64,000 bases of DNA from NCBI GenBank assembly GCA_017549505.1, contig JAFYUS010000002.1, forward strand, positions 50,529-114,528, in the 5' to 3' direction. Positions 37,342 through 52,286 of the stretch are shown here, one piece after another. This DNA comes from Bacteroidales bacterium (GTDB taxonomy: Bacteria > Bacteroidota > Bacteroidia > Bacteroidales > UBA932). Position numbers and translations under genes: made by a program. Position 1 is the stretch's first letter. Each line of letters opens with the position of its first letter. The notes beneath the pieces were generated by a model. That model saw only the letters and a list, made by a program, of their open reading frames with translations. It made no database searches and was not told where the DNA came from.

Positions 37342-38370
37342 ATGGCTAAAGAAGAAGTACAGGAAGGTACCGGTATCAATGCTGCGAAACTCAAGGCATT
37401 GCAGGCGACGATTGACAAGATTGAGAAAGATTACGGTAAAGGTACGATCATGAAGTTGGGAGATCAGCCAAAATGGGAAGTTTCGGTGATTCCGAGCGGT
37501 TCCATTGCCCTTGACGCCGCACTCGGCATAGGCGGATACCCACGTGGAAGAGTCATCGAGATCTACGGACCTGAATCCAGCGGTAAGACAACCCTCGCGA
37601 TCCATGCGATCGCACAGGCGCAGAAGCAGGGCGGCATAGCCGCAATCATCGACGCAGAACATGCGTTCGACAGGACCTACGCCAAGAATCTCGGCGTAGA
37701 CCTGGACACACTGCTTATCTCGCAGCCGGACAACGGAGAACAGGCCCTCGAGATTGCAGACAACCTGATCAGGTCGGGAGCTATCGACATCATCGTAATC
37801 GACTCTGTTGCAGCGCTTACTCCTAAGGCTGAAATCGAAGGCGAGATGGGAGACTCCAAGATGGGACTTCAGGCAAGGCTCATGAGCCAGGCGCTCAGAA
37901 AGCTGACAGCAAACATCAGCAAGACAAACACATGCTGCATCTTCATCAACCAGCTGCGTGACAAGATCGGCGTGATGTTCGGAAACCCTGAGACGACTAC
38001 CGGAGGTAACGCGCTCAAGTTCTATGCATCAGTACGTGTGGACGTCCGCAGGACGACCCAGATCAAGGACGGTGACGAGGCTCTCGGAAACCGCACCAAG
38101 GTAAAGATCGTAAAGAACAAGATGGCTCCGCCGTTCAAGAAGGCTGAATTCGACATCGTATACGGAGAGGGTATCTCAAGAGTAGGAGAGGTAATCGACC
38201 TCGCAGTCGAATATGACATCATCAAGAAGAGCGGCTCTTGGTTCAGCTACGGTGACAGCAAGCTCGCGCAGGGACGCGAGGCTGTCAAGAACCTCCTCAC
38301 AGACAACATCGAGCTCTGTGACGAGATCGAGGCAAAGATCCGCGAGGCTCTCAAGAACGTACAGGACTAA
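37342..38370 (+). CDS. recA: recombinase RecA
   Basis: 342 residues, normal length. Walker [10 protein letters not shown] near residue 76, [17 protein letters not shown] (Walker B), [20 protein letters not shown] (L2 and following segment, residues about 193-212), and the acidic C-terminal helix. It pairs homologous DNA and triggers the SOS response. Monocistronic, with its own promoter and a long hairpin element after the stop. Confidence 0.98.
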
Positions 38371-38386
38371 TCTGACTTATAACGCA

Positions 38387-38453
38387 AGACACCCGATGTG
38401 GCTCGCTGCACAGAAGCAAAAGTAGATGCTTCGCCCAGCCACATCGGGTGTCT
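38387..38453. repeat. nested palindrome downstream of recA
   Basis: Perfect 17-bp outer stem (38387-38403 with 38437-38453) enclosing a second hairpin GAAGCA/TGCTTC (38413-38432). The inner arm starts with GCTCGCTGCA, a 10-base string shared with the elements in the arginine operon. Probably also ends transcription between the convergent recA and DUF4160 genes. Confidence 0.8.
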
Positions 38454-38471
38454 GGTGTTTATTTCAGATAG

Positions 38472-38915
38472 TTAATCCAAATGTCCATTGTACAGATCCT
38501 CTACCGGGAATATCATATCCCAGTCTTTTCCCCAGACAACATTTCCACTCTCTATCGAAAAGGTCTGGAAACAGTCTGGATCAAGATATCTGTCGTGCTG
38601 CGGATGAGGATATTTATTTATGAATCTTTCAAAATCGACGACACGGACAATTCCGTCACTGAATGTAAGTGACAAGGACAGTCCTCCCATATAAACAGCA
38701 TCAACGATAGTCATAATCTTGTCTTGATTTGCGTGCTGTGACAAAGGTAAATAACCTTTTGCATTTCTCCTAACAAGTGCTTTAAAATTCCCGTCCTCAA
38801 GAATTATTTCATACACAAGCTGACGGTCACCATGAATGACATGTACATGAATCGGTTCATGTTCATTGGAATAGAAAAAGAATACAAATCCGAAATACTC
38901 AAAAATTTTTGGCAT
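38472..38915 (-). CDS. DUF4160-DUF2442 fusion protein
   Basis: 147 residues. Residues 1-70 match DUF4160 (MPKIFEYFGFVFFFYSNEH followed by HVHV), residues about 75-147 match DUF2442 (LTFSDGIVRVVDFERFI and GNVVWGKDWDMIFPVEDLY). The two families are usually separate neighbouring genes with a toxin-antitoxin-like pattern; here they are one protein. Function unproven. Convergent with recA; no partner gene adjacent. Confidence 0.75.
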   Translation of the reverse strand: MPKIFEYFGFVFFFYSNEHEPIHVHVIHGDRQLVYEIILEDGNFKALVRRNAKGYLPLSQHANQDKIMTIVDAVYMGGLSLSLTFSDGIVRVVDFERFINKYPHPQHDRYLDPDCFQTFSIESGNVVWGKDWDMIFPVEDLYNGHLD

Positions 38916-38937
38916 GATATATACTGATTAATGTGAC

Positions 38938-39897
38938 TTATGGCAATGCTATACAGCAACCAGACAAGGAATTCCATTGATCTTCAGTCAATATTCCTGC
39001 GGCGAGGAGGGCATCGACGGTCCATTGATCGGGCGGGGTGTTTTCGCGGAAGAAGACTATGGATTTTGCAGTCTCGTAGTTCCTTATGTAGGGGTGTCTG
39101 CGAAGAGAATCTGCAGGAAGTGTCCAAAGAGGATATGGGGTAATGTGTTCAGGAGAAACGGTGATAAGATCTTTAAGCGCATCGTATTTTTCCTGATCGA
39201 AACGATATATGTCCAGAAGCTGCTCCTTATAGGAATAGCCTCCAAGGGCCTCGCGATGTTCGACCATCTTCGTGGCAAACCAGCCGCCGATGCCCGGAAG
39301 GGCATCAAAGGCGGCAGAATCTGCAACGTTCAGGTCTGTCAGAGGTATGTCAATATAAGTTTCCAGACGACGGTACACACTGTCAGCAACGACATATGAC
39401 TTTGCGAAATCTTCCTTCCTTCTGAATCGCCCGCCTTTCTGACGGTAATTATCAATCGCACCCGCCTGCTTCCTCGTGAATCCCAGGCGGCACAGATCTT
39501 CAATCGAAACGGTATTGGGATTGAATACGAAGGATTCAATATTCCGAGGAGGCGCATTCTCCCTTACCGCTTCGGCACGCGGAGAATGGACAGCCATACG
39601 CTTTTCCACTAAGAGAGCTTCGCTCTTCTCCCGACCGGGGCCCTTCGGCCCGTCGGGAGTTTCCGGCCCGTCTGGACCTTTTTGCCCATAGGGCAGGTCC
39701 GGGACAGCCGCATACTTTGGTACATAGACATAAACCGTATCCGGTTCGTCACGGTTGGCGGCAATCTTCATCACTGACGCCTGATGGATAAAAAGGGCTG
39801 TCTGGTATCCCACAACGAGGAAGACTATGGCGATGACCCCGATAATGAAGGACTCAGACAGCCCCGACTTCTTCTCCTTTGAATCTGAACTTTCCAT
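38938..39897 (-). CDS. membrane-anchored helix-hairpin-helix (ComEA-like) protein
   Basis: 319 residues. One membrane segment near 15-38, then a periplasmic part with helix-hairpin-helix repeats: FNPNTVSIEDLCRLGF, LTDLNVADSAAFDALPGIGGWFA and a third degenerate unit. Such proteins bind DNA during uptake (ComEA) but in Bacteroidota are widespread and uncharacterised. Residues about 66-95 (GQKGPDGPETPDGPKGPGRE and on) are encoded by back-to-back palindromes at 39614-39700 and look like an in-frame insertion in the linker between membrane and HhH domains, where it would do little harm. Confidence 0.7.
   Translation of the reverse strand: MESSDSKEKKSGLSESFIIGVIAIVFLVVGYQTALFIHQASVMKIAANRDEPDTVYVYVPKYAAVPDLPYGQKGPDGPETPDGPKGPGREKSEALLVEKRMAVHSPRAEAVRENAPPRNIESFVFNPNTVSIEDLCRLGFTRKQAGAIDNYRQKGGRFRRKEDFAKSYVVADSVYRRLETYIDIPLTDLNVADSAAFDALPGIGGWFATKMVEHREALGGYSYKEQLLDIYRFDQEKYDALKDLITVSPEHITPYPLWTLPADSLRRHPYIRNYETAKSIVFFRENTPPDQWTVDALLAAGILTEDQWNSLSGCCIALP
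39614..39700. repeat. in-frame palindromic insertion in the HhH protein gene
   Basis: Three palindromes in a row: AGAGC/GCTCT (39614-39626), CTCCCGAC/GTCGGGAG (39628-39659) and GGACCT/AGGTCC with inner GCCC/GGGC (39674-39700). The coding frame stays open. Confidence 0.75.
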
Positions 39898-39905
39898 AAT
39901 GAATC

Positions 39906-39942
39906 AAAAAAAACAGATACCTGTCATAAACAAAGTATCTGT
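39906..39942 (-). terminator. intrinsic terminator after rsmI, inside the leader of the HhH gene
   Basis: Minus strand: ACAGATAC (39942-39935) pairs with 39920-39913, followed by eight T (39913-39906). The next start codon is at 39897, so the hairpin also lies in the leader of that gene. Confidence 0.85.
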
Positions 39943-39962
39943 CGTATGATTCATCCCTTCTG

Positions 39963-39992
39963 CAAAGGTAGACGTCAAGACTGAAAATGCAA
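39963..39992 (-). promoter_or_regulatory. promoter of the HhH protein gene
   Basis: Minus strand: -33 TTG (39992-39990), 19-base spacer, -7 TACCTTTG (39970-39963). Start near 39956, just upstream of the terminator-like hairpin. Confidence 0.55.
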
Positions 39993-39994
39993 GA

Positions 39995-40729
39995 TTATTC
40001 GTCGTCCTCAGTGCAGTTTTTTCCGTTTTTATATGCTTTTTTCTTTTTTTTAGTCTCCGGAGCCCCTGAAACGATGATCACAATCTCTCCTTTAGGCTCA
40101 TGTTCCTTGTACCATGCAGCAACTTCGGCAAGAGTTCCGCGTTTGTGCTCCTCGAATTTCTTCGAAATTTCTCGGGCAACCGAACATTCCCTTTCCTCTC
40201 CGAAGAACTCTGCAAACTGCTCAAGAGTCTTTAACAGACGGTAAGGAGATTCATAGAAAATCATTGTTCTCGTCTCCTCCGAGAGTTCGGTCAGACGTGT
40301 CTGTCTTCCTTTCTTCTGCGGAAGGAATCCTTCGAAACAGAAACGGTCGCATGGGTATCCGGACGAAACAAGAGCCGGAACAAAGGCAGTCGCACCAGGT
40401 AGGGTCTGCACCTCGATTCCTTCCTGGACGCATGTCCTTACGAGCAGGAAACCAGGGTCGGAGATTCCCGGAGTGCCGGCATCGCTGATCAGAGCGACAT
40501 TGAGTCCAGACAGAATGCGCTCCTTTATCATGGACGCCGTCTTGTGTTCGTTGAACTTATGATGCGACTCGAGACGTCCCTTTATTTCATAATGCTTGAG
40601 AAGTACGGAACTTGTCCTGGTATCCTCCGCCAATATGAGGTCTGCCTCCTTAAGCACCCTTATAGCTCTGAAGGTCATATCCTCCAGATTGCCCACAGGG
40701 GTCGGAACTATATATAAAATGCCTGCCAT
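39995..40729 (-). CDS. rsmI: 16S rRNA 2'-O-ribose C1402 methyltransferase
   Basis: 244 residues. Tetrapyrrole-methylase fold: LYIVPTPVGNLEDMTFRAI at the start, AEDTRTSSVLLKHY, LISDAGTPGISDPG and GATAFVPALVSSG. RsmI methylates C1402 of 16S rRNA in the decoding centre. The C-terminal Lys-rich tail (ETKKKKKAYK) is encoded by an A-rich run. One base separates it from the acidic-protein gene upstream. Confidence 0.95.
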   Translation of the reverse strand: MAGILYIVPTPVGNLEDMTFRAIRVLKEADLILAEDTRTSSVLLKHYEIKGRLESHHKFNEHKTASMIKERILSGLNVALISDAGTPGISDPGFLLVRTCVQEGIEVQTLPGATAFVPALVSSGYPCDRFCFEGFLPQKKGRQTRLTELSEETRTMIFYESPYRLLKTLEQFAEFFGEERECSVAREISKKFEEHKRGTLAEVAAWYKEHEPKGEIVIIVSGAPETKKKKKAYKNGKNCTEDDE

Positions 40730-40730
40730 C

Positions 40731-41600
40731 CTATCTGATCTTTCTGCGTACTGCCATCATGAAACGGTATACGGTCTCTGATTCGAGGTCCCATTCCGGA
40801 CGCCCGGTCACAACGAAATCCACGACTTCATCAAGAGAAGCCATCTGGTTTATCTTGGTAAGTGCATCCTGGAAAGCCATCGGATCCTGTCCGAAAAGCA
40901 TGTTTATGAACAGGATTCTGTCATTGAGGGATATTGCGCTCCTTATATCCTTCACAGGAGTTCCCGGCATATCGGTTCTCCATGCCTGTCGGTCAGTCAT
41001 TGAATCTATCACAGCCTGGCGTGGCTTACTGTCTATCGGAGCTGCCTGCGGTACAGGCTCTGGTTCGGGTTCTGCAAAGATCGGAAGATCGTCGTCTTCA
41101 TCAGCGACCGGCTCTACCGGTTCTTCAATGAACATGACAGGTTCTTCGGCAGATTCTTCCATCAGAACTTCTACCGGTTCCTCAACCTGTTCTTCAACAT
41201 TTTCCTGGAAGGTCTCTTCTACCGGTTCCTCGAACTGTTCTTCTGCCGGCTCGGCAGGAACATCATCGAACGGCAGATCGTCATCGACGGTATCTTCAAC
41301 TACCGGAACTTCGATCTCCGGCTCGACTACGTCTTCAACCTCCTGAACATCTGTCACTGAGATTTCTGTCTCAGGAACTTCAGCCTCCGGCTCGACAACG
41401 TCTTCTGTCTCCGGGATTTCATCAACCGGTTCCACCATCATGTCATCCAGATCGAGGTCGATCGGAGTCATATCTTCATCTTCCTGTCCTGCAACATGTT
41501 GCAGCTGGGCAAACTTGATTTCCAACAGTTCCATCTGCGACCTGAGTGAAGTCATCAGGTCTTTGATTTCCGACAAAATCTGCAGTTCTTTATTTTCCAT
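40731..41600 (-). CDS. acidic low-complexity protein with conserved C-terminal domain
   Basis: 289 residues. Residues 1-40 form a short coiled coil (ILSEIKDLMTSLRSQMELLE). Residues about 42-195 are almost all Glu, Val, Pro, Asp (repeats such as VEPEAEVPETE), a disordered spacer. Residues about 205-289 form a folded domain (AISLNDRILFINMLFGQ, MTKINQMASLDEV-like, YRFMMAVRRKI) that recurs in Bacteroidota proteins of unknown function. Overlaps closely with rsmI (1-base gap), diverges from tdk. Confidence 0.65.
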   Translation of the reverse strand: MENKELQILSEIKDLMTSLRSQMELLEIKFAQLQHVAGQEDEDMTPIDLDLDDMMVEPVDEIPETEDVVEPEAEVPETEISVTDVQEVEDVVEPEIEVPVVEDTVDDDLPFDDVPAEPAEEQFEEPVEETFQENVEEQVEEPVEVLMEESAEEPVMFIEEPVEPVADEDDDLPIFAEPEPEPVPQAAPIDSKPRQAVIDSMTDRQAWRTDMPGTPVKDIRSAISLNDRILFINMLFGQDPMAFQDALTKINQMASLDEVVDFVVTGRPEWDLESETVYRFMMAVRRKIR

Positions 41601-41615
41601 GAAGTCAATAATTAC

Positions 41616-41623
41616 TATATTTG
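41616..41623 (+). promoter_or_regulatory. -7 element of tdk
   Basis: TATATTTG, 46 bases before the tdk start; no good -33 TTG at the expected distance. Confidence 0.5.
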
Positions 41624-41669
41624 CGTTCCAGAGTCAAGGACACATTATTAATCCTACAAAAATAAGGAA

Positions 41670-42245
41670 ATGTTTTTAGAAAGTGCAAAAAAAGCAGGTT
41701 CGATCGAAGTAATCTGCGGTTCAATGTTTTCAGGCAAGACTGAGGAGCTGATCAGAAGAATGAAAAGAGCCCAGTTCGCAAAGCAGAAAGTGGAGATATA
41801 CAAACCCTGCATAGATGTAAGATATTCAGAGGATCAGGTCGTTTCTCACGACTCCCACAGCATACCGTCAACCCCTATTGATTCACCGGCCAGCATGCTT
41901 CTCCTGTCAAGCGATGTTGAAGTCGTAGGCGTTGATGAGGCACAGTTCTTTGACGAGACTCTCGTTGATGTCGTACAGACCCTCGCCAACAGAGGCATCA
42001 GAGTCATCGTTGCCGGTCTCGACACAGACTTCTTGGGCAAGCCTTTCGGTCCTATGCCGGCTCTCATGGCAGTCGCCGAGGACATCCAGAAGGTCCATGC
42101 GATATGCGTGAAGTGCGGAAGCCCGGCAAACCATTCCCACAGACTTGTTGCCAGCGACGCTCTGGTGGTCCTTGGCGAGAAAGACGAATATGAACCTCTC
42201 TGCAGGCACTGCTACAACGCTGCCGTCGCAGCAGAAAGACAATAG
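41670..42245 (+). CDS. tdk: thymidine kinase
   Basis: 191 residues, type II enzyme. P-loop [26 protein letters not shown] (Walker B and catalytic Glu), [15 protein letters not shown] (lasso), and a zinc site from CVKCG and CRHC. Salvages thymidine with ATP. Followed by a series of palindromes. Confidence 0.97.
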
Positions 42246-42261
42246 ACCATTACAGATACAT

Positions 42262-42338
42262 CCAATCCCTCCCGAATGTGGCCCGCTCCGCAGGAGCATA
42301 GGAAAATGCTCCGCTCGTCCACATTCGGGAGGGATTGG
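42262..42338. repeat. nested palindrome downstream of tdk
   Basis: Perfect 20-bp outer stem (42262-42281 with 42319-42338, CCAATCCCTCCCGAATGTGG) around an inner GGAGCA/TGCTCC hairpin (42293-42312). Same architecture as the element after recA. Confidence 0.85.
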
Positions 42339-42349
42339 CTTATAGCAAA

Positions 42350-42411
42350 GCCGTTGAGCGGGACATACCATAATGGAAGCTACTGTATGACTATGTCAAT
42401 CGCTCAACGGC
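42350..42411. repeat. 11-bp inverted repeat GCCGTTGAGCG
   Basis: Perfect arms 42350-42360 and 42401-42411 with a 40-base loop. The same core, CCGTTGAGCG, forms the stem of the neighbouring hairpin. Confidence 0.7.
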
Positions 42412-42414
42412 AGC

Positions 42415-42471
42415 AAAAAATGACCGTTGAGCGGAAATCCCCAGTTCAAATGCAGATTTTCCGCTCAACGG
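42415..42471 (-). terminator. terminator of the TSCPD gene
   Basis: Perfect 14-bp stem CCGTTGAGCGGAAA (42424-42437 with 42458-42471). On the minus strand it is followed by TCATTTTTT, fit for intrinsic termination. Confidence 0.75.
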
Positions 42472-42518
42472 CTTTGATTCAAATCTTTCTTAGGTCCTAT
42501 GTCAGGTCAATGATTATG

Positions 42519-42905
42519 TTACTCTAATGCTTTCAGAACCTTGGCCAGCTGATCGGGGCATGAGGTACCGCGTTTGCCGCAGGTGATTCCGTCCAGACGC
42601 CTGATAGCCTCCTCGACTGTCATGTCCTTGATAAGGGCGCCGATTCCCTTGGCATTTCCTTCGCAGCCTCTGGTATATACGACAGACTGGATGATGCCAT
42701 CCTTGATCTGGATATCGATCTGCTTTGAACATACCTTTGCACTTGGAGCCGCCACAATGTATCTTACTCCGTCTTCTACCTTGTCACTGATGATCTTATA
42801 ATCATCTACAACTACCTGTTCCATAGTCTGGTTCTGAGTCTTTTCCTGTGCCGATGCTGTCAGAGCAACCATCACAGATACAATTGCCAAAATTAACTTC
42901 TTCAT
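42519..42905 (-). CDS. secreted TSCPD-domain protein
   Basis: 128 residues from ATG 42905, chosen because it begins a signal peptide (MKKLILAIVSVMVALTASA). The mature part is a TSCPD domain: CEGNAKGIGALIK, then RLDGITCGKRGTSCPDQLA. TSCPD domains bind metal through cysteines and occur at the C-terminus of NrdJ and as short free proteins, normally cytosolic; an exported form is uncommon in my knowledge. No partner gene is adjacent. Confidence 0.8.
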   Translation of the reverse strand: MKKLILAIVSVMVALTASAQEKTQNQTMEQVVVDDYKIISDKVEDGVRYIVAAPSAKVCSKQIDIQIKDGIIQSVVYTRGCEGNAKGIGALIKDMTVEEAIRRLDGITCGKRGTSCPDQLAKVLKALE

Positions 42906-42924
42906 AGTTTCTACCTTATATTTC

Positions 42925-42957
42925 AAAAGAACAAAATACCCGTCATTTTGTTCTTTT
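42925..42957 (-). repeat. perfect 13-bp hairpin (AAAAGAACAAAAT type)
   Basis: Arms 42925-42937 and 42945-42957, 7-base loop; ends in a T-run on both strands. Lies just before the TSCPD gene start. Confidence 0.7.
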
Positions 42958-42976
42958 AGCGTTAATATTTACTGTT

Positions 42977-43009
42977 AAAAGCACAAAATCAGGGGGTTTT
43001 TGTGCTTTT
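42977..43009 (-). terminator. perfect 12-bp hairpin (AAAAGCACAAAA type)
   Basis: Arms 42977-42988 and 42998-43009. Near copy of the hairpin 20 bases away. It probably ends transcription of the 78-residue gene. Confidence 0.65.
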
Positions 43010-43023
43010 GAATTTACATGAAA

Positions 43024-43260
43024 TTAAAAAAGCGTAGGGTGATTATCGTCCAACTGAGATAGGACTTTCTCCATGATCGCCTCTCTGTAGAGTACTGCCT
43101 TTGTACCCACCCGGAACTGCTCACAATAGCGGTTTATGGCAGCCATCTCACTATCATTCAAATAGATAACCTGCCTATGTCTGCGCACAAGGGCTTCCTT
43201 CTGCTTCTTCAGATATTCGGGATCTACACCCTGAGATGTCTTTTTCTTCTTCTTTGCCAC
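43024..43260 (-). CDS. small basic protein, ribbon-helix-helix-like, unknown function
   Basis: 78 residues. Lys-rich N-terminus, then one strand-helix unit (RHRQVIYLNDSEMAAINRYC) followed by helices (KAVLYREAIMEKVL) and the ending PTLF. The pattern suits a DNA- or RNA-binding regulator of ribbon-helix-helix type. It diverges from the arginine operon across 262 bases, so it could act there, but that is only position. Confidence 0.6.
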   Translation of the reverse strand: MAKKKKKTSQGVDPEYLKKQKEALVRRHRQVIYLNDSEMAAINRYCEQFRVGTKAVLYREAIMEKVLSQLDDNHPTLF

Positions 43261-43303
43261 GATTCTATTAATGTTCCGGCCGTTCCAAGGCCAAAATTTC
43301 GTG

Positions 43304-43311
43304 CAAAGTTA
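43304..43311 (-). promoter_or_regulatory. -7 element of the 78-residue gene
   Basis: Minus strand TAACTTTG matches TAnnTTTG; start near 43297. No clear -33. Confidence 0.4.
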
Positions 43312-43334
43312 GCATATTTATGGAATATATTGGT

Positions 43335-43342
43335 TATCTTTG
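43335..43342 (+). promoter_or_regulatory. -7 element of the arginine operon
   Basis: TATCTTTG matches TAnnTTTG. Start near 43349, giving a leader of about 174 bases before the first gene. No clear -33. Confidence 0.5.
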
Positions 43343-43348
43343 TACCCA

Positions 43349-43522
43349 ATATGAACTTTTCAAGATACATATTAGTCCGAATCTAGGAGGGGCTCTCGAA
43401 GCAATTCCCTCCCAATTGCAATTGACAATCTCGGTTTGTCTTGCCGTTAGGACATCTATCGACTTCCCTCCAGGAGGGCAATCCGCCAATATTAAAGTAA
43501 ATAACAATATAAGCCAACATTT
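43349..43522 (+). promoter_or_regulatory. long structured leader of the arginine operon
   Basis: About 174 untranslated bases with several short complementary purine/pyrimidine tracts: AGGAGGGG near 43387, CCCTCCC near 43408, CCCTCCAGGAGGG near 43462. These allow alternative pairings as in an attenuator. No known riboswitch was recognised and no leader peptide is evident. Confidence 0.35.
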
Positions 43523-44128
43523 ATGCAAATAAATGTCCTTGTGGCTGATGCAAGCCACGTGAAATATGCAGATGAAATCTGCGAAGAAGTATTCATTTCC
43601 GCACGAGAAAGAGGTACCGGTATCGCAAGAAGAACTCCGGAGTATGTAGCGGAAAAGATGCTGGCCGGTAAAGCGGTCATCGCAATCGCCGAAGACGGCA
43701 GATTTGCAGGATTTTCATATATCGAGACATGGGGTGGAAAGGAATATGTAGCCAACTCCGGTCTTATCGTTTCACACGCATTCCGCGGTCTGGGTCTCGC
43801 GATGCGCATCAAGACACGCATCTTCGAATTGTCAAGAGAAAAATATCCGAACGCAAAGATTTTCAGCATCACCACCGGTGCCGCCGTCATGAAGATGAAC
43901 TACGAATTAGGGTTCAGACCTGTGACATTCGCCGCCCTTACTGACGACCCGGAATTCTGGAAGGGATGCCAGGGCTGCAGGAACTATCAGATTCTGGAAA
44001 GCAACAATTACAGGATGTGCCTCTGCACAGGACTTCTCTATGATCCCGCAGAACATCTTACCGTCTTGAACCCGGCTGACCCTAAGCTCGCCAATCTCAA
44101 GGACGGAGAACAGAAATCAGGAAAATAA
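43523..44128 (+). CDS. GNAT acetyltransferase of the arginine operon
   Basis: 201 residues. GNAT fold: GRFAGFSYIETW (beta4), LIVSHAFRGLGLAMRIK (acetyl-CoA loop) and MNYELGFRPVTF. The C-terminal part holds cysteines (GCQGCRNY, RMCLCTG). First gene of the operon, 14 bases before argG. Its place suggests the first step, acylation of glutamate, i.e. an N-acetyl- or N-succinylglutamate synthase unlike classical ArgA. No direct proof. Confidence 0.75.
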   Translation: MQINVLVADASHVKYADEICEEVFISARERGTGIARRTPEYVAEKMLAGKAVIAIAEDGRFAGFSYIETWGGKEYVANSGLIVSHAFRGLGLAMRIKTRIFELSREKYPNAKIFSITTGAAVMKMNYELGFRPVTFAALTDDPEFWKGCQGCRNYQILESNNYRMCLCTGLLYDPAEHLTVLNPADPKLANLKDGEQKSGK

Positions 44129-44142
44129 TAAGCATTAAACAT

Positions 44143-45336
44143 ATGAACAACAAGGTAGTACTCGCCTTCAGCGGCGGACTGGACACATCATTCTGTGTCC
44201 CTTATCTCAAGGAAAAAGGTTATGAGGTCCATACGGTAATGGTAAATACCGGAGGATTCTCGGCAGAAGAGGAAAAAGCCATCGAGGAGCGTGCGCTCAA
44301 GCTCGGCGCTGCTTCACATAAGAACGTAAATGCAGTAGAGACTTATTACAGCAAGGGTATCAAGTACCTTATCTACGGCAACATCCTCAAGAACGCGACA
44401 TACCCGCTCTCAGTAAGTTCAGAGAGAGTATTCCAGGCTCTTGAAGTGCTCAAGCATGTCCAGAACATCGGAGCAGGCGCAGTAGCCCACGGAAGTACAG
44501 GAGCCGGCAACGACCAGGTACGTTTCGATATCGTCTTCGAAATCCTTGCACCTGAAGTAGAGATCATCGCTCCCGTACGCGACGAGGGATTCACACGTCA
44601 GTTCGAAATCGACTTCCTGCAGAAACATGGCTTCGACTTCTCATGGGAAAAGGCGAAGTATTCTATCAACCAGGGTCTCTGGGGTACCAGCATCGGAGGC
44701 GTGGAGACACTTTCTTCAGACGGATATCTTCCTGAAGAGGCCTATCCGACTAAGGTTACGAAGTCGGAGCCCGAACACATCAAGATAGGCTTCCGCAAGG
44801 GTGAGCCTGTGTCATTCAATGGCGTTGAAATGAGCCCTGTGGATGTCATCAAGGCAGTTCGCGACGCAGCTGGTCCGTTCGGAATCGGACGCGACATCCA
44901 TATCGGTGATACCATCATCGGAATCAAGGGCCGCGTAGGTTTCGAGGCAGCTGCACCGCTCATCATAGTAAAGGCACATCACCTTCTCGAGAAGCACACC
45001 CTCACAAAGGGACAGCTCTACTGGAAGGACCAGATTTCAGGATGGTATGGCCAGCAGATGCATGAGGCCATGTATCTTGATCCTGTCTGCAGAGATATGG
45101 AGGCTATGATGGACAGCATCGAGCAGCATGTGACCGGAGAGGTGGAGGTTGCACTCATGCCTTACCATTTCTCAGTTCTCGGATGTACAAGCGAGCACGA
45201 CCTTATGAGTTCGAAGTTCGGAGCATATGGCGAGGTCAACAAGTCATACACCGGACGTGATGTCGTAGGCTTCACAAAAGTGATCGCCAATCCTCTAAAG
45301 ATTTATTATTCTGTCAATGGATCTATCGATGAATAA
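44143..45336 (+). CDS. argG: argininosuccinate synthase
   Basis: 397 residues. N-type ATP pyrophosphatase loop AFSGGLDTSFC at the start; AHGSTGAGNDQVRF and YSINQGLWGTSIGG follow. It joins citrulline and aspartate using ATP. Second gene of the operon; its stop overlaps the argC start (ATGAATAA). Confidence 0.97.
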   Translation: MNNKVVLAFSGGLDTSFCVPYLKEKGYEVHTVMVNTGGFSAEEEKAIEERALKLGAASHKNVNAVETYYSKGIKYLIYGNILKNATYPLSVSSERVFQALEVLKHVQNIGAGAVAHGSTGAGNDQVRFDIVFEILAPEVEIIAPVRDEGFTRQFEIDFLQKHGFDFSWEKAKYSINQGLWGTSIGGVETLSSDGYLPEEAYPTKVTKSEPEHIKIGFRKGEPVSFNGVEMSPVDVIKAVRDAAGPFGIGRDIHIGDTIIGIKGRVGFEAAAPLIIVKAHHLLEKHTLTKGQLYWKDQISGWYGQQMHEAMYLDPVCRDMEAMMDSIEQHVTGEVEVALMPYHFSVLGCTSEHDLMSSKFGAYGEVNKSYTGRDVVGFTKVIANPLKIYYSVNGSIDE

Positions 45337-46414
45337 AATACGTGTGGCGATTGCGGGTGGTACGGGATACACCGGCGGAGAGCTCTTCAGGATATTGCTG
45401 AACCATCCGAATGTGGAGATTGTCGCAGCGACGACGACTTCGTCCGAAGGTACGCCGGTGGCATCTGTCCACCGCGACCTTATTGGGGAGACAGACCTTT
45501 GCTTCGGAAAGGAACTGAACGATCCGGATGTGATATTCCTTTGTCTTGGACACGGCATTTCCCGTCAGTTCGTGGACACACACGACATCAAGCCGGAGTG
45601 CAGGATCATCGACCTCGGCAATGATTTCCGTCTTGACGGAGACTATGCCGGTAGGCATTTTGTCTACGGCCTTTGCGAGAGCGCACGCGAAGCCGTGCGC
45701 TCGGCTCACGATGTCGCTAATCCGGGATGTTTTGCAACTGCCATCCAGCTGGCAACGCTGCCTTTGGCTGCAGCCGGACTGATCAATGATGAGATTCATG
45801 TGACTGCAATCACCGGCTCTACCGGTGCCGGCAAGAAGCCGGGAGAGACCACGCATTTCAGCTACCGTAGCGACAACATTTCAATCTACAAGTTGTTTAC
45901 GCATCAGCATCTTGCTGAAATCAAACAAAATCTGTCAAAAGTGATTCAGTTGCCCGTTGACTCCACTGGCCCCCTCCCACTCCGTGGGTCCCTCCCCCTA
46001 GCCGGGGGTGGCAATGCCAGTTCCGTCAATCAGGCAACTGAATCATGCCAGAACAACGCAGATGTGAAAATCAATTTTGTGCCGCTCAGGGGGGATTTTG
46101 CCAGGGGTATATTTGCAAGCGTTTATACTAGGGCTGTTGAAGGGATGAGTCAGGAGGATTATCAGAAGTTGTTTGAGGAGTATTATGCAGCTTCGCCGTT
46201 TGTATTCCATTCTAAGGAGGGCATTTCGATGAAGGAGGTTGTGAACACCAACAAGGGTCTGGTTCATGTGGAGCTGCATGACGGATATGTTCATATCGCT
46301 TCATGCATCGACAATCTTGTGAAAGGAGCTGCGGGACAGGCTGTTCAGAACATGAACCTTATGTTCGGACTACCGGAAGACACCGGTCTTCGTCTCAAAC
46401 CATCTGCATTTTAG
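45329..46414 (+). CDS. argC: N-acyl-gamma-glutamyl-phosphate reductase with in-frame palindromic insertion
   Basis: 361 residues from ATG 45329, which overlaps the argG stop; an in-frame ATG at 45317 lies inside argG. NADP loop AGGTGYTGGEL, catalytic Cys in VANPGCFATAIQ, THFSYRSDN, then FVPLRGDFARGIFA. Residues about 205-239 (Pro/Leu/Gly-rich LPLRGSLPLAGGGNA and flanks) interrupt the domain and are absent from ordinary ArgC; they are encoded by the palindromic element 45943-46044. The frame and all motifs survive, so the enzyme is probably active with a surface loop. It reduces N-acyl-glutamyl phosphate. Confidence 0.93.
   Translation: MNKIRVAIAGGTGYTGGELFRILLNHPNVEIVAATTTSSEGTPVASVHRDLIGETDLCFGKELNDPDVIFLCLGHGISRQFVDTHDIKPECRIIDLGNDFRLDGDYAGRHFVYGLCESAREAVRSAHDVANPGCFATAIQLATLPLAAAGLINDEIHVTAITGSTGAGKKPGETTHFSYRSDNISIYKLFTHQHLAEIKQNLSKVIQLPVDSTGPLPLRGSLPLAGGGNASSVNQATESCQNNADVKINFVPLRGDFARGIFASVYTRAVEGMSQEDYQKLFEEYYAASPFVFHSKEGISMKEVVNTNKGLVHVELHDGYVHIASCIDNLVKGAAGQAVQNMNLMFGLPEDTGLRLKPSAF
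45943..46044. repeat. palindromic element inside argC
   Basis: Inverted arms 45943-45970 and 46016-46044 (28-29 bases, a few mismatches) enclose a 45-base GC-rich core. The core ends with CCCCCTAGCCGGGGGTGGCA (45994-46013), shared exactly with the argC-argD gap element and with one extra G with the argE-argH one. Confidence 0.85.
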
Positions 46415-46563
46415 TTAAATTTCAGCTAACAAAATGTTCCAGTGACCCCCTCCTGCCTCCGGCGCTGCTCGCTGCAAAGGTCCACAGGACCATTTGCCTA
46501 GTCGCTCACGACCCCCTAGCCGGGGGTGGCATGTCACTTACACATTTTGTCACCTGAAATTAA
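46415..46563. repeat. palindromic element between argC and argD
   Basis: Begins directly after the argC stop. Outer arms 46415-46437 and about 46541-46563 are near-perfect inverted copies (core ACAAAATGT); inner GTGAC/GTCAC pair next. The core of about 85 bases holds GCAAAGGTCC-ACA-GGACC-ATTTGC and the shared GCTCGCTGCA. Nothing else lies in this 205-base gap apart from about 55 bases of A/T-rich sequence before argD. Confidence 0.85.
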
Positions 46564-46619
46564 TATTAACAGAGACTTGATACAAAGACCTTAAAAACGC
46601 GAGTTTAAGTTATAGAAGT

Positions 46620-47744
46620 ATGAATTTATTTGAAGTATATAAGTTGTGGGATATTGAGCCTGTAAGGGGGTTGGATACAACACTTTGGGATAAGAACGGG
46701 GAGGTCTATACTGACCTTTATGGCGGACATGCAGTTATTTCTGTGGGACATTCTCATCCGCATTATGTAAAGATGCTGCAGGAGCAGCTGGGCAACCTAG
46801 GATTCTATTCCAATGCAGTTCAGAATTCGCTGCAGAGAGAACTTGCAGCACGTCTTGGACGGGTATGCGGTTATGATGATTACGCGCTCTTTCTTTGCAA
46901 CAGTGGTGCTGAGGCAAATGAGAACGCTCTGAAGGTTGCATCGTTCCACACAGGAAAAGCAAAGGTGCTGGCTTTCCGCAAAGCCTTCCACGGAAGGACT
47001 TCAGGAGCAGTGGCTGCGACTGACAATCCTAAGATACAGGCACCGTTCAATGCTACGGAAAACATCGTGTTCGTACCGCTCAATGACCTTGATGCTGTCG
47101 AAGCGGAACTCTCCAAAGGAGATTTCGCCGCCGTAATCATCGAAGGTATCCAGGGTGTGGCAGGAATATATGAACCTGCCGATGAGTTCCTCCATGGACT
47201 CAGGTCGCTTTGCGACAGACACGGATGTGTCCTCATACTTGATGAAATCCAGTCAGGATACGGCCGCACCGGCAAGTTCTTCGCCCACCAGCATAGCGGC
47301 GTACGAGCTGACATCATAACAACCGCTAAAGGCATGGGTAACGGATTCCCTATAGGAGGAGTGCTCATCAGCCCTTCGATCAAGGCCTCGTACGGAATGT
47401 TGGGAACTACTTTCGGAGGTAACCACCTTGCATGTACAGCCGCTCTGGCTGTCATTGATATCATTGAGAATGAGCATCTTGTAGAGAATGCTGCCAGAAT
47501 GGGAGAGTATTTCCGTTCAGCATTCGAAAACGACAAGGCAATCAAGGAATACAGGGGCAAGGGTCTTATGATCGGCATGGAACTGAAGGACGAATATGTC
47601 GGACTTCGCGACCGTCTTCTGTTTGAAAGGCATTTCTTCACAGGAGCCGCAGGAGCACAGGTCATCCGCCTGCTCCCGTCCCTGACCGTATCGCAGGAAA
47701 CTGCAGAATCATTCGTTAACGCTTGGAAAGAACTGACCATATGA
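46620..47744 (+). CDS. argD: N-acylornithine aminotransferase
   Basis: 374 residues, class III PLP aminotransferase. FLCNSGAEANENALK (cofactor phosphate), AFHGRTSGAVAATDN, ILDEIQSGYGRTGKF, and ITTAKGMGNG with the PLP lysine. Converts the N-acyl semialdehyde to N-acyl-ornithine. Its stop overlaps the argF' start (ATGA). Confidence 0.96.
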   Translation: MNLFEVYKLWDIEPVRGLDTTLWDKNGEVYTDLYGGHAVISVGHSHPHYVKMLQEQLGNLGFYSNAVQNSLQRELAARLGRVCGYDDYALFLCNSGAEANENALKVASFHTGKAKVLAFRKAFHGRTSGAVAATDNPKIQAPFNATENIVFVPLNDLDAVEAELSKGDFAAVIIEGIQGVAGIYEPADEFLHGLRSLCDRHGCVLILDEIQSGYGRTGKFFAHQHSGVRADIITTAKGMGNGFPIGGVLISPSIKASYGMLGTTFGGNHLACTAALAVIDIIENEHLVENAARMGEYFRSAFENDKAIKEYRGKGLMIGMELKDEYVGLRDRLLFERHFFTGAAGAQVIRLLPSLTVSQETAESFVNAWKELTI

Positions 47745-48694
47745 GACATTTCACATCCATAACCCAGCTCGGCGACCTCAAGAACGCACTTGAGGCAGCA
47801 AAATATGTAAAGGAGAATCCTTTTGCAGATCAGGAACTCGGACGCAACAAGACGCTGCTCATGATCTTCTTCAACTCCAGCCTGCGCACAAGACTCAGCA
47901 CGCAGAAGGCTGCCATGAACCTCGGCATGAACGTGATCGTTCTCGACGTGAACCAAGGTGCATGGAAGCTGGAGACTGAACGCGGCGTCATCATGGACAG
48001 TGACAAGCCGGAGCATCTTCTTGAGGCTATACCTGTCATGGGTTCATACTGCGACGTGATCGGAGTCCGCGCTTTTGCAAAGTTCGAAAGCAAGGAAGAT
48101 GACTACAACGAAGTGATAATCAATCAGTTCATCCAGCATTCCGGCAAGCCGGTATTCAGTATGGAAGCAGCCACAAGGCACCCGCTCCAGACATTTGCCG
48201 ACCTTATCACGATAGAAGAATACAAGAAGGTGGAGAAGCCGAAGATCGTGATGACATGGGCCCCACATCCGAAAGCACTGCCGCAGGCTGTGCCGAATTC
48301 ATTCGCCGAAGGCATCAACATGACTGATTACGAATTCGTGATCACCCACCCGCATGGATATGAACTCGATCCTGCATTCACCGGTCGCGCCCGCATCGAG
48401 TACGACCAGCGCAAGGCCTTCGAAGGCGCAGACTTCATCTATGCGAAGAACTGGTCGGCGTATAGCGGCGACAACTACGGAAAGATCCTCTGCACCGACC
48501 GCGACTGGACGGTAGACGCCGAGAAGATGGCTCTTACCAACAACGCATACTTCATGCACTGCCTCCCTGTCCGAAGGAACATGATCGTGACTGACGATGT
48601 CATCGAAAGTCCGCAGTCCATAGTGATTCCAGAAGCGGCAAACCGTGTAGTATCAGCTCAGACCGTGCTGAAAGAAATCTTGAAGAGTCTATGA
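47741..48694 (+). CDS. argF': N-succinyl-/N-acetyl-ornithine carbamoyltransferase
   Basis: 317 residues from ATG 47741. FFNSSLRTRLSTQ binds carbamoyl phosphate; ATRHPLQTFAD, FMHCLPVRRN follow. Strikingly close to the Bacteroides fragilis N-succinylornithine enzyme as I remember it. The residue that sets specificity, Pro90 in that enzyme and Glu92 in the Xanthomonas N-acetyl enzyme, is Pro here (GVIMDSDKPEHLLEA, Pro90). So N-succinylornithine is the likely substrate. Overlaps argD by 4 bases and argB by 4 bases. Confidence 0.92.
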   Translation: MRHFTSITQLGDLKNALEAAKYVKENPFADQELGRNKTLLMIFFNSSLRTRLSTQKAAMNLGMNVIVLDVNQGAWKLETERGVIMDSDKPEHLLEAIPVMGSYCDVIGVRAFAKFESKEDDYNEVIINQFIQHSGKPVFSMEAATRHPLQTFADLITIEEYKKVEKPKIVMTWAPHPKALPQAVPNSFAEGINMTDYEFVITHPHGYELDPAFTGRARIEYDQRKAFEGADFIYAKNWSAYSGDNYGKILCTDRDWTVDAEKMALTNNAYFMHCLPVRRNMIVTDDVIESPQSIVIPEAANRVVSAQTVLKEILKSL

Positions 48695-49554
48695 TCAAAG
48701 TAGTAAAGATTGGCGGAAATGTGGTGGACAATCCGTCGCTTCTGAGGGAGTTTGTCAAGGATTTCGCGGCTATGCCGGGAATGAAGGTGCTCATTCATGG
48801 AGGCGGGGTCATGGCGAGCCAGATGCAGAAGGAGATGGGCATGGTGCCGAAGATGGTCGAAGGTCGCAGGGTGACGGACGATGAGGCATTGAAGGTCGTG
48901 ACCATGGTATATGCGGGATGGTGCAACAAGAACATCGTCGCTCTTCTGCAGGCAGAAGGATGCAACGCCATCGGTCTCACAGGTGCGGACGGCAATGCCA
49001 TAAAGGCGCGTAAGAGGCCTCCGGTTCATGTGGAAAGCCTCGGAGAGGAAGTTGACTACGGTTACGTCGGGGATGTGACGGCAGAGAGCGTAAATGCAAA
49101 GTTCATATATTCCCTCCTTGAGAAAGGAATCGTTCCGGTATTCAACGCGATAAACCATGACGGGAACGGCAACCTGCTGAACACTAATGCAGACACCATC
49201 GCTTCGTCAGTGGCAATCGCCATGGCGAACTACAGATACAGAACACCGCGCGAGGTATGCAGCAGATGCGAAGAATGCACATTCTGCAGCGACGACGGCC
49301 GTCTGACACATGTAACCGATCTGGTCTACTGCTTCGAGAAGGACGGCGTCCTGTATGATAAGGATGACGATTCGAGCGTGATACCGGAAATCGACAGGGA
49401 GAAGTTTGCGCAGCTGAAGGCGGAAGGAAGAGTCGCAGACGGAATGATCCCGAAACTTACTAATTCATTCAAAGCCATCGACAGCGGTGTCGCGAAGGTG
49501 ATCATCAAGCACGCACGCAATCTGCTGGGCACCACCGGAACAACTCTGATATAA
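48691..49554 (+). CDS. argB: N-acylglutamate kinase with a four-cysteine insertion
   Basis: 287 residues. VKIGGNVV, LIHGGGVMASQ, GRRVTDDEALKVVTMVYAG, GLTGADGNAI and NTNADTIASSVA mark the amino-acid-kinase fold. Between the ADTI helix and the nucleotide-binding VTDLVYCFEKDGVLYD strand lies an insertion of about 20-25 residues with CSRCEECTFC (C-x2-C-x2-C-x2-C, near residues 190-199). This is absent from ArgB proteins I know and could bind zinc or an iron-sulfur cluster. Phosphorylates N-acyl-glutamate. Stop overlaps the argE start (TAATG). Confidence 0.93.
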   Translation: MIKVVKIGGNVVDNPSLLREFVKDFAAMPGMKVLIHGGGVMASQMQKEMGMVPKMVEGRRVTDDEALKVVTMVYAGWCNKNIVALLQAEGCNAIGLTGADGNAIKARKRPPVHVESLGEEVDYGYVGDVTAESVNAKFIYSLLEKGIVPVFNAINHDGNGNLLNTNADTIASSVAIAMANYRYRTPREVCSRCEECTFCSDDGRLTHVTDLVYCFEKDGVLYDKDDDSSVIPEIDREKFAQLKAEGRVADGMIPKLTNSFKAIDSGVAKVIIKHARNLLGTTGTTLI

Positions 49555-50807
49555 TGGATAACAACGGGTACATACGGACGCTGACAGCTGAAGCTGTCGA
49601 GCTGCTGAAGGAGATGGTGGCGATACCGTCGCCTTCGTTCAGCGAGGATGCTGTCTGCGAGCATATAAGCGGATGGATGAATGAGAGAGATCTGGAGCAT
49701 GAACGCATCGGCAACAACATCATCGCCGAGCACATCACCGACCCTTCGAAACCTGTCCTCATGCTCTGTGCCCATATGGACACAGTCAGCCCGTCTGAAG
49801 GATATGAATTCGATCCATATAGACCGGATTACAACATTGCAGCAGAGACGATCGGCAGAATAACAGGACGGGAGGTCAAGTCGGGAGAAATCGTTGCCGG
49901 CCTCGGAAGTAATGACGACGGAGCTTCGGTAGTTGCCATGCTTGCGGCATTCAGGTACTATAGCAGCAGGGGATGCGGTACACGAAACCGTGCTACCCCC
50001 CTGGCCGCAGGGGGAGGGACCCGCTCCGAAGGAGTGGGAGGGGTTGTTTCGTGTACCGCATCCCCTGCTGCAGCGAACCTCGTACTGGTGCTGACATGTG
50101 AGGAAGAGAGGTCCGGAAAGAACGGAATGACGGGGTTATGGAGCACTAGGGTCTGCAGCAGAAAAAACGCAACAGAAGGATGCATGCCTATTGACCTGGC
50201 AATCGTCGGAGAGCCGACAGGGATGAAGGCGGCGACTGCGGAAAGAGCTCTGCTTGTGATTGATGCAGCTGCACATGGTGTCAGCGGACATGCAGCAAGA
50301 AATGAAGGCGAGAATGCGCTGTACATTGCATTGGAGGATATAGAGAAACTGAGGAATCACGAATTCAGCAGAATTTCTCCTAGGATGGGAAAGGTCAATC
50401 TGAACGTGACTCAGATCAAGGCAGGAACTGCCCACAATGTCATTCCTGACCGGTGTGACTTCGTGATCGACATACGTCCTACAGAGCAATATACCAATGA
50501 GGAGATTCTCAAGGAACTAGAGTCGATATGCCGAAGCGAGCTCAAGCCTCGCAATCTTACAAACCGTTCGAGCGCGACCTTCACAGACTCCCCTCTCCAG
50601 AAAACAGCAGAGGCACTCGGCATAGAGACATTCTCATCCCCGACAACGTCGGATTGGATGAGGATAAGCTGCGATGCCATCAAGATGGGACCAGGAGAAT
50701 CATCCCGCTCCCACCGTCCGAATGAATTCGTCTTCACCGACGAAATACAACACGCAATAAACACTTACATCGCTTTTATCGAATATTTATATAACTACCA
50801 GATGTAG
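49554..50807 (+). CDS. argE: M20-family N-acyl-ornithine/citrulline deacylase with in-frame palindromic insertion
   Basis: 417 residues, M20 metallopeptidase. Metal site: LCAHMDTVSP (His, Asp), GSNDDGAS (bridging Asp), TCEEERSGKNG (base Glu) and IVGEPTG. Residues about 137-173 (ending in the Gly/Ala/Ser-rich TASPAAA) separate AAFRYYSSRG from LVLVLTCEEE, which normally lie close together; this is the product of the palindromic element 49963-50071. It should remove the succinyl or acetyl group to yield citrulline or ornithine. With a carbamoyltransferase acting on acyl-ornithine, acyl-citrulline is the expected substrate. Confidence 0.88.
   Translation: MDNNGYIRTLTAEAVELLKEMVAIPSPSFSEDAVCEHISGWMNERDLEHERIGNNIIAEHITDPSKPVLMLCAHMDTVSPSEGYEFDPYRPDYNIAAETIGRITGREVKSGEIVAGLGSNDDGASVVAMLAAFRYYSSRGCGTRNRATPLAAGGGTRSEGVGGVVSCTASPAAANLVLVLTCEEERSGKNGMTGLWSTRVCSRKNATEGCMPIDLAIVGEPTGMKAATAERALLVIDAAAHGVSGHAARNEGENALYIALEDIEKLRNHEFSRISPRMGKVNLNVTQIKAGTAHNVIPDRCDFVIDIRPTEQYTNEEILKELESICRSELKPRNLTNRSSATFTDSPLQKTAEALGIETFSSPTTSDWMRISCDAIKMGPGESSRSHRPNEFVFTDEIQHAINTYIAFIEYLYNYQM
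49963..50071. repeat. palindromic element inside argE
   Basis: Perfect 26-base inverted arms 49963-49988 and 50046-50071 around a 57-base core. The reverse complement of the core reads like the argC core (CCCCTCCCACTCC then GGGTCCCTCCCCCT), so it is the same family in the other orientation. Confidence 0.9.
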
Positions 50808-50946
50808 GTCACTATGATATTCAGTGACCTCCTCCTGCCTCCGGAGCTGCTCGCTGCAAAGGTCCACAGGACCATTTGCCTAGTCGCTCACGACCCCCTA
50901 GCCGGGGGGTGGCATGTCACTTCCATATCATAGTGACCTACATCTG
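50799..50946. repeat. palindromic element between argE and argH
   Basis: Perfect 22-base arms 50799-50820 and 50925-50946; the left arm includes the last codons and stop of argE. The 104-base core is nearly identical to that between argC and argD for more than 50 bases and carries CCCCCTAGCC followed by GGGGGGTGGCA. Confidence 0.92.
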
Positions 50947-50960
50947 AAGAACAGATAATT

Positions 50961-52286
50961 ATGAGTACACTTTGGAGTAAAGGAACACAGGCAACAGACC
51001 TGGTAGAGGATTTTACAGTAGGAAACGACCGTATACTGGATATGCGTCTGGCAAAGTATGATGTGACAGGATCAAAAGCACACATCAAGATGCTGGAATC
51101 GATAGGGCTTCTGGAATCTGACGAACTCGAAATACTTACAGCTGCGTTGGACCAGATTCTCAAGGAGATCGAGAAGGGAGAATTCGTTCTGGAAGATGAC
51201 GTCGAGGATATCCATTCGCAGGTAGAGCTTCTGCTGACACGTCGTCTCGGAGACCTTGGCAAGAAGATCCACTCCGGACGCTCGCGTAACGACCAGGTTC
51301 TTGTCGATGTGAAACTCTTCCTGAAGGACGAGGTTCTCAAGCTGCGCGAAGAAGTCCTTACCTTATTCAGCACACTCCAGAGCCTCAGTGAGAAACATAA
51401 GGAGATACTCCTTCCGGGCTACACTCATGGCCAGGTAGCGATGCCTTCGTCATTCGGCCTCTGGTTCGGAGCATATGCCGAGGCTCTTGCAGACGACATG
51501 TACATGCTTCGTGGAGCATACAATGTGACCGACCAGAACCCTCTCGGTTCAGCTGCAGGATACGGAAGCTCATTTCCTCTCGACCGTCAGATGACAACAG
51601 ACCTTCTCGGCTTTGCAAGCCTCGATTACAACGTAGTTGCATCACAGCTCAGCCGCGGCAAGGCCGAAAAGGCCGTCGCGGCTGCTATGGGAGCGGTCGC
51701 TCTGACCCTCAACAAATTTGCAGCCGACTGCTGCATGTACATGAGTCCGAACTACGGATTCATCAAGTTCCCGGATGAACTTACAACCGGCTCGAGCATC
51801 ATGCCGCACAAGAAGAACCCTGACGTTTGGGAGATCATGCGCGGAAACTGCAACCGCATCATGGCCGTCGAAAATGAGATCAACATGCTCTGCAGCAACA
51901 TGCCGCACGGTTACCACCGCGAATTCCAGCTCCTGAAGGACATCCTCTTCCCTGCCCTGGAGAACATGCACAGATGTCTCCAGATGGCTGACTACATGCT
52001 CCAGCACATCATCGTGAAAGAGAATATTCTTGATGCGCCTATCTATGACTACCTCTTCACAGTAGAGGAAGTCAACAGACGTACCCTCGAAGGCATGCCA
52101 TTCCGCGATGCTTATAAGTCTGTCGGTATAGAAGTCAACGAAGGAAAGTTCAGATATCAGGGAGCGGAGGGAAAGACAAACGGCCAGCTTACGCCGGCCG
52201 ATCTTAAGCACACATCCATCGGCAGTCTCGGAAACCTCTGTACAGAGCGCATCAAGGCGAAGATGGACGCTGCAGCAAAATTCTAG
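50961..52286 (+). CDS. argH: argininosuccinate lyase
   Basis: 441 residues. VEDIHSQVELLLTRR, GRSRNDQVLVDVKLF, the signature GSSIMPHKKNPD with the catalytic Ser loop, and GMPFRDAYKSVG near the end. It splits argininosuccinate to arginine and fumarate. Last gene of the operon, followed by a two-sided terminator. Confidence 0.97.
   Translation: MSTLWSKGTQATDLVEDFTVGNDRILDMRLAKYDVTGSKAHIKMLESIGLLESDELEILTAALDQILKEIEKGEFVLEDDVEDIHSQVELLLTRRLGDLGKKIHSGRSRNDQVLVDVKLFLKDEVLKLREEVLTLFSTLQSLSEKHKEILLPGYTHGQVAMPSSFGLWFGAYAEALADDMYMLRGAYNVTDQNPLGSAAGYGSSFPLDRQMTTDLLGFASLDYNVVASQLSRGKAEKAVAAAMGAVALTLNKFAADCCMYMSPNYGFIKFPDELTTGSSIMPHKKNPDVWEIMRGNCNRIMAVENEINMLCSNMPHGYHREFQLLKDILFPALENMHRCLQMADYMLQHIIVKENILDAPIYDYLFTVEEVNRRTLEGMPFRDAYKSVGIEVNEGKFRYQGAEGKTNGQLTPADLKHTSIGSLGNLCTERIKAKMDAAAKF

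Follow-up and report, generated by a model that had tools for sequence, protein, structure and literature searches.

How can a small dispersed element keep the sequence of its tip constant and yet stand, at each site, on a stem of its own? The question is raised by a 64,000-nucleotide stretch of a Bacteroidales bacterium of GTDB lineage UBA932 (assembly GCA_017549505.1, contig JAFYUS010000002.1, positions 50,529 to 114,528 of the forward strand), hereafter referred to as the window. From the sequence alone, the first-pass annotation had claimed four copies of such an element within one operon plus relatives after recA and tdk, and had proposed that the family generates inverted copies of its host flank. 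All six inverted pairs were found, each as a pair of arms around a structured tip (6/6 sites). They are listed below under gene names (recA, tdk, argC, argD, argE and argH, and truB further on) that are presumed, being recognised from the sequence or taken from that annotation.

38387..38453, + strand: copy after recA; arms 38387-38403 / 38437-38453, 17 bp exact; tip 38404-38436; short core of type C, holding GCTCGCTGCA
42262..42338, + strand: copy after tdk; arms 42262-42281 / 42319-42338, 20 bp exact; tip 42282-42318; short core of type C
45942..46045, + strand: in-frame copy in argC; arms 45942-45954 / 46033-46045, 13 bp exact; core of type B, with CCCCCTAGCCGGGGG at 45994-46008
46418..46561, + strand: copy at the argC-argD junction; arms 46418-46437 / 46542-46561, 2 mismatches in 20; core of type A with an enlarged first hairpin
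49963..50071, - strand: in-frame copy in argE; arms 49963-49988 / 50046-50071, 26 bp exact; core of type B in reverse orientation
50799..50946, + strand: copy at the argE-argH junction; arms 50799-50820 / 50925-50946, 22 bp exact; core of type A with an enlarged first hairpin

The copies at the argC-argD and argE-argH junctions are 98% identical over 87 nt, yet their arms are unrelated. Exact stems of at least 13 bp with loops of up to 130 nt number 11 in the whole window, 5 of them belonging to the listed copies and 6 being core-less (three of these of 13 bp), and the mirror-repeat control for such stems gave 0. The left arm of the argE-argH copy (50799-50820) overlaps the argE stop codon.

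The anatomy of the tip was established for type A on 169 distinct copies; copy numbers differ between our analyses (137, 169, 235, 172 and 168) according to filters and deduplication, and neither copies nor pairs of copies are independent events. The order from 5' to 3' is a variable arm, a TCC-type half of an internal loop, a closing helix of 3-4 bp, ACCCCC, a hairpin (P3), a second hairpin CCCCC-TAGCC-GGGGG (P4), TGGCAYGT, the other strand of the closing helix, a TNC-type loop half and the matching arm. The commonest set of these strings is exact in 118/169 copies, and 35 more differ from it only by ATGT/ACGT. Position 2 of the closing helix is paired in 99% of copies against 38% with shuffled partners, a figure to be read with the filter in mind, which demanded at least 2/3 closing pairs and so inflates pairing at positions 1-3 by construction. 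Positions 5-7, the internal loop, are unpaired, at the shuffled level. Below this fixed loop follows the variable stem of about 20 bp, with 51-82% pairing at positions 8-26 (55% at position 8) against 25-34% with shuffled partners, falling to background by position 30. Folded as DNA, the copy at L313 gives a stem with two side hairpins, with z about -9 on both strands. The other tips follow the same plan, namely type B (argC, argE), the short type C (recA, tdk) and type D (genome G392). The motif CGTC lies inside some right boundaries (GGCACGTC). At two loci of G392 (L318, L321), type D tips stand on nearly the same arms, ATCCAAGGCTGTA(A)CAG.

The arms, in contrast to the tip, are specific to the site in the genome of the window. 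In a test of 137 copies with fixed flanks and ungapped arms, pairing scores had a median of 13 within a copy and of 7 when arms were mismatched, and the 300 controls reached 12 at most; 45/137 copies score 10 or less, so that about a third stand at the control level. A comparison of nine genomes at fixed register gave an identity between the arms of different copies of 0.28-0.38 in seven of them, where the left-right pairing within a copy was 0.39-0.81; the other two are considered below. Nine same-genome pairs have P3 at least 95% identical, and their arm identity is 0.35-0.47 in 8 and 0.75 in one. Related inner arms also occur at different loci, L016 and L265 for example. Terminal inverted repeats constant in the family, as in miniature inverted-repeat transposable elements, were thus not found in 7/9 genomes, nor was the constant stem-loop of the repetitive extragenic palindrome (REP) type found in the genome of the window, where a constant tip stands on site-specific stems.

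That the family is dispersed, as had been proposed, was borne out by a genome-wide search for the core, whereas the proposal that the copies share core strings held for several of them only. The string CCCCCTAGCCGGGGG is exact in three window copies (argC, argC-argD and argE-argH). Allowing up to 3 mismatches brings its matches in the window to 4, a number reached in 0/100 shuffles; the fourth match lies in the argE copy, which has a variant core on the other strand. With up to 1 mismatch it has 22 matches in the genome of the window (2.13 Mb, 69 contigs) against 0 for the reversed control. The string GCTCGCTGCA is present in the argC-argD, argE-argH and recA copies, but is by itself a poor marker of the family: of its 10 exact matches in the genome, 6 lie in copies and 4 in other sequence. 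The tdk copy has neither string, and the recA and tdk copies are like the others in plan and not in core. In a separate observation, several CCGTTGAGCGG-like strings lie in both orientations just 3' of the tdk copy (42346-42476) and make up two more inverted pairs (16 and 14 bp).

Within the genomes sampled, and short of a full survey, the core is confined to this Bacteroidales genus of gut bacteria. A core 20-mer (up to 1 mismatch) is present in 10/61 same-genus genomes, that of the window included, and in a sample of the whole order it was found in the window's genome alone, with none in 117 genomes of 117 other genera of the order and none in one further genome of the same genus. Among the matches listed in a scan of GTDB contigs, every title named Bacteroidales, Bacteroidaceae or Bacteroidia, and the animal, where a title named one, was always a ruminant. 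As to a phage or virus as carrier, a 20-mer of the core had 0 exact matches in viral contigs. Long hairpins may break assemblies, so that copies may be under-counted. In genome G007, the ArgC match on contig C58 stops at residue 198, which is the contig end, near the position of the element.

Placement relative to genes, defined by a plain open reading frame (ORF) rule, was classified for 138 of the 169 copies, the others being set aside for short flanks (28) or a position at an edge (3). Intergenic copies make up 113/138, lying between convergent genes in 58 cases, between tandem genes in 54 (40 in the direction of the gene, 14 against it) and between divergent genes in 1, and at least one gene end adjoins 112/113 of them. 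The distance from the upstream stop codon to the core is 10-47 nt in 89/98 copies, and an arm overlaps that stop codon by at least 3 nt in 20/120. The remaining 25/138 copies lie within ORFs (19 and 6 by strand). The argC and argE ORFs stay open across their in-frame insertions; in-frame copies are absent from many relatives, and the argE copy brings its 26-bp exact stem to a position where relatives lack the insertion. The likeness to the in-frame copies of Rickettsia palindromic elements drawn at first sight therefore holds, for argC and argE and also for truB of genome G236 (L258), in which one gene carries two in-frame insertions with two different core types. In the argC region that corresponds to window positions 45942-46045 (L286/L317), the tip is of type A in G298 and of type B in G392, G055 and the genome of the window, and all the arms differ.

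Comparison of relatives indicates how copies change. The tip is flipped with respect to its flanks at 11/36 loci with at least two distinct copies, and the core has turned with the arms unchanged (L284/L300) or nearly unchanged (L291/L311). For 14 loci the closest pairs that could be aligned were compared. Double changes preserving the pairing are transitions in 8 cases, at 2 loci, and transversions in 10, at 6 loci; mirrored changes were found at 7/14 loci. Over 20 arm positions of L053/L069 the one difference is mirrored, C:G to G:C, and in L287/L297 an indel is nearly mirrored, with 3 nt added on the left against 2 nt and one change on the right. Arm homogenisation and spacer inversion, both features of template-switch hairpins, are thus seen between relatives. 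At locus L316 of G392, a gene end, TGCAGTAGAGTATTTTAGAG, is followed after a 2-nt loop by its perfect 20-nt inverted copy; at this site in G298 the coding end differs by one base, there is no inverted copy, and a type A core is present. Other GC-rich palindromes adjoin the inverted copy at L316.

We tentatively favour the reading that the element is small, non-autonomous and mobile, a folded core that owes both the making and the repair of its stem to fold-back template switching. The conserved part is the folded tip, with its two side-by-side hairpins, 3-4 bp closing helix and TCC/TNC internal loop on one preferred strand, and most copies in the genome of the window and its nearer relatives have a stem of their own of about 20 bp. 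A polymerase that meets the strong tip would switch to the other arm or to the nascent strand, copying the flank backwards, and such copying would give each locus arms of its own that stay complementary, would carry new changes over from one arm to the other as mirror images, and would at times turn the tip round. The element would move as a single strand, moved by some enzyme, and would settle where a hairpin is least harmful or is helpful, mostly just 3' of stop codons, the usual place of terminators, and in some cases within protein loops that tolerate an in-frame insertion. Fold-back template switching explains the coding copies with long stems, the mirrored transversions, the flips and L316.

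A series of results weighs against this reading. The first concerns 40 loci, each represented by one orthologous pair, most of which fall in two groups. In 19/40 the left-arm identity is at least 0.80 with a mean P3 identity of 0.91, and in 16/40 the arm identity is at most 0.57 and P3, at an identity of 0.67, is slightly more alike than in unrelated copies (0.59; p=0.036), the other 5/40 being intermediate in arm identity. At 10/40 loci the left arms are 100% identical while the flanks are 84-95% identical. A given copy is therefore often stable, and replaced arms usually accompany a replaced tip; the replacement of arms and P3 together is better explained by whole elements turning over than by arms being rewritten where they stand, with L158/L238 as the exception (P3 identical, arm identity 0.55). 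Continuous rewriting of arms in place is weakened accordingly. In the closest pairs, single unpaired changes (27, of which 18 are transversions, 4 lead to A.C and 5 to G.T) exceed the 18 double changes, other changes numbering 9; many of the single ones fall on the ends of arms or belong to two pairs apparently out of register.

Second, arm mismatches are asymmetric, with A.C 71, G.T 26 and other 77 over 2443 positions of 116 copies (p=5e-6 for 71:26, computed with non-independent copies). Since A.C corresponds to G.T or G.U wobble on the complementary strand, folding of one core strand seems to matter, whatever the gene direction, and the asymmetry points to selection on one folded strand, with which RNA and single-stranded DNA are equally compatible. 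Fold-back copying alone leaves both the conservation in place and this bias unexplained, so that selection on the folded strand is needed as well. The ratio A.C:G.T is 41:17 for convergent, 11:3 for tandem-with, 5:2 for tandem-against and 13:4 for in-ORF copies; the same excess in all classes, some of them small (5:2), does not favour a function of the gene's own transcript strand. Among the single changes in the closest pairs, A.C and G.T stand at 4 against 5.

Third, fold-back copying alone does not account for the branch with constant arms. In RUG14513 and RUG345 the arms of different copies have identities of 0.69 and 0.68 (left-right pairing within a copy 0.33-0.36), so that the claim that each copy has its own inverted arms stands for the genome of the window and not for this branch, where the near-constant arms named beforehand as contrary evidence were encountered; they were not in the seven other genomes.

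The remaining results against it come from sites without the core, and these bear as well on a close rival, itself unlikely in our estimate, in which the core inserts into the tips of resident hairpins, for the most part intrinsic terminators that follow stop codons, and the old terminator stem provides the arms. Copies unmatched at known loci were sought in the partner genome for the pairs G298/G392 (21 flanks queried, 15 partners; a 22nd, L293, had no remaining flank) and G000/G236 (25 flanks queried, 21 partners, 20 fetched). The core is present in one genome and absent from the other at 23 of the 35 partners, while 12/35 are in fact occupied by a tip of the same type, a flipped one or another tip. 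Of the 23 core-less partners, 3 retain the arms, wholly or partly, as a hairpin, formed by the outer arms at L330 and L344 and by a shorter version at L331, and at L201, in a further genome pair, the outer arms are likewise kept as a hairpin at a core-less site. Arms that predate the core had been named beforehand as contrary evidence; these core-less hairpins may predate the core or remain after its loss. At L344 the residual loop TAC matches the element's own right internal loop and may be a remnant of it, and there core loss is as likely as prior absence. Arm tracing was applied to 18/23 core-less pairs (type B L015, L262, L267, L273 and L275 left out), L016 being dropped for lack of an anchor: neither arm was traced above control in 13/17 partners, and an arm scored above every control in 4/17, truB among them. 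L316, with its 20-nt inverted coding end, shows an inverted copy of host flank, there without this core.

The truB site was considered as proof of an ancestral left arm and rejected as such. In three near relatives (L362-L364) the loop is short, EGKT or EGRT, at the point where G000 carries extra residues including the left boundary of the element; the loop length varies in other relatives, and a lost copy has most likely, if not with certainty, left these residues behind as its scar. In several genomes of the genus without a core at the argE-argH junction, another small hairpin lies near TCTCGACTTCGCTCGAGATGACA at the argE end (L202, L204, L207, L208, L210, L212, L213 and L220).

Insertion into existing terminators explains the position of the copies, with 112/113 intergenic copies next to a gene end and the core 10-47 nt from the stop codon in 89/98, as well as the core-less hairpins, with which the different long perfect hairpins at the core-less partners L345, L350 and L351 may be placed; the outer positions, A-rich in the left arm and T-rich in the right arm, also agree with it. 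It does not explain the coding copies: such a hairpin is not expected inside ORFs, where 25/138 copies lie, and the argC and argE relatives without the insertion show none. Long exact core-less stems are, moreover, as few in the window as counted above.

A narrower version of fold-back copying, which we regard as doubtful, would have only the tip mobile, the stem being made at each new site by backward copying of host DNA into a locus-specific inverted duplication, and the tip flipping by hairpin opening and recopying, as in parvoviruses, with one preferred single strand. Core flips, some mirrored arm changes and L316 agree with the fold-back or template-switch mechanism of the first-pass annotation, of which copying of the host flank at insertion is a putative part.

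Less probable still is a single structured RNA or single-stranded DNA element that comprises the entire hairpin with its arms, which would travel with it and then drift under selection for pairing. The near-constant arms of RUG14513 and RUG345, the related inner arms at L016 and L265 and the type D arms at L318 and L321 are consistent with carried arms, as are the strong conservation in place, the 71:26 mismatch asymmetry independent of gene direction, and closing pairs that vary yet stay paired (a result that the filter favours). Copies with like tips in the same genome, including the 87-nt pair of the window, mostly have unrelated arms, however, and the mirrored transversions bypass G-U intermediates. 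It is very improbable that the copies are REP-like elements moved by a tyrosine transposase, a REP-associated tyrosine transposase (RAYT) or one of the IS200/IS605 group, since, although their placement at gene 3' ends resembles that of REPs (PMC3733652) and a Y1_Tnp match was found in 11/11 core-bearing against 7/12 core-less genomes tested (a weak association), one core-less genome has 7 such matches, no match comes closer to a listed core than 3.8 kb (the others being at least 13 kb away or on other contigs), and site-specific arms are not among the REP features given in the accessible parts of that account (PMC3733652).

A search for a Y1 transposase (PF01797), the only enzyme searched for, found none adjoining a core in 23 genomes of draft contigs, so that the RAYT suspected next to the copies did not materialise as an adjacent Y1_Tnp. 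Transposons usually leave a direct duplication at the site of insertion, and the element was rightly held to differ from them: over 168 type A copies no general direct target duplication was found (the score averaged 7.72, and 7.18 in 400 mismatched flanks; p=0.06). Scores of at least 12 were obtained for 6/168 copies against 0/400, 4/6 of them from RUG14513 (L090, L150, L163 and L173). Duplications that seemed possible by eye in L010, L262 and L285 are not general over these copies. Rfam 15 covariance models, run on window positions 36000-52000 with E up to 5, gave six matches, all far below gathering scores.

Among known systems, the terminal repeats of adeno-associated virus (AAV) have a stem with two small side hairpins and a tip in both orientations, flip and flop; the likeness is one of plan only, as no virus, Rep protein or genome end appears in anything seen here. 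Rickettsia palindromic elements form families with a family-wide palindrome sequence; they share with the present copies palindromic insertions in frame within protein genes, and by this description differ from them both in arms, which here mostly vary per copy, and in host, here a Bacteroidales genus. An in-frame insertion of a palindromic element in R. conorii is mentioned in the available part of PMC3733652. REPs are described there as small dispersed palindromes at gene ends, and they and bacterial interspersed mosaic elements, like other CGTC- or GTAG-tagged repeats, share with our family small palindromes near the ends of convergent or same-direction genes; they are sorted by terminal tetranucleotide and palindrome (PMC3733652), whereas the present family has a constant tip, a site-specific stem and no Y1 transposase adjoining the core. 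Template switching creates and maintains hairpins (PMC8794818) and homogenises arms and inverts spacers (PMC8604942), according to the portions of these papers available. Perfect stems, arm homogenisation and spacer inversion are thus common to template-switch hairpins, or quasipalindrome correction, and to our copies; there, however, the mutation process acts at single loci, and here it would act around a dispersed conserved core in tens of copies (PMC8794818, PMC8604942). Searches of the freely available literature brought to light, among the papers listed, no family that combines a constant tip with a different stem at each site.

If every site came to hold a fresh inverted duplication, this would be a new outcome of insertion; the other possibility is insertion aimed at hairpin tips. 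Either outcome would show how long perfect hairpins, terminators included, originate and spread. With hundreds of sequenced species and many orthologous copies in the genus, the origin of the arms, the inversion of the tip and the concerted evolution of the stem are directly measurable, and these genomes make it testable how a new copy gains its matching stem.

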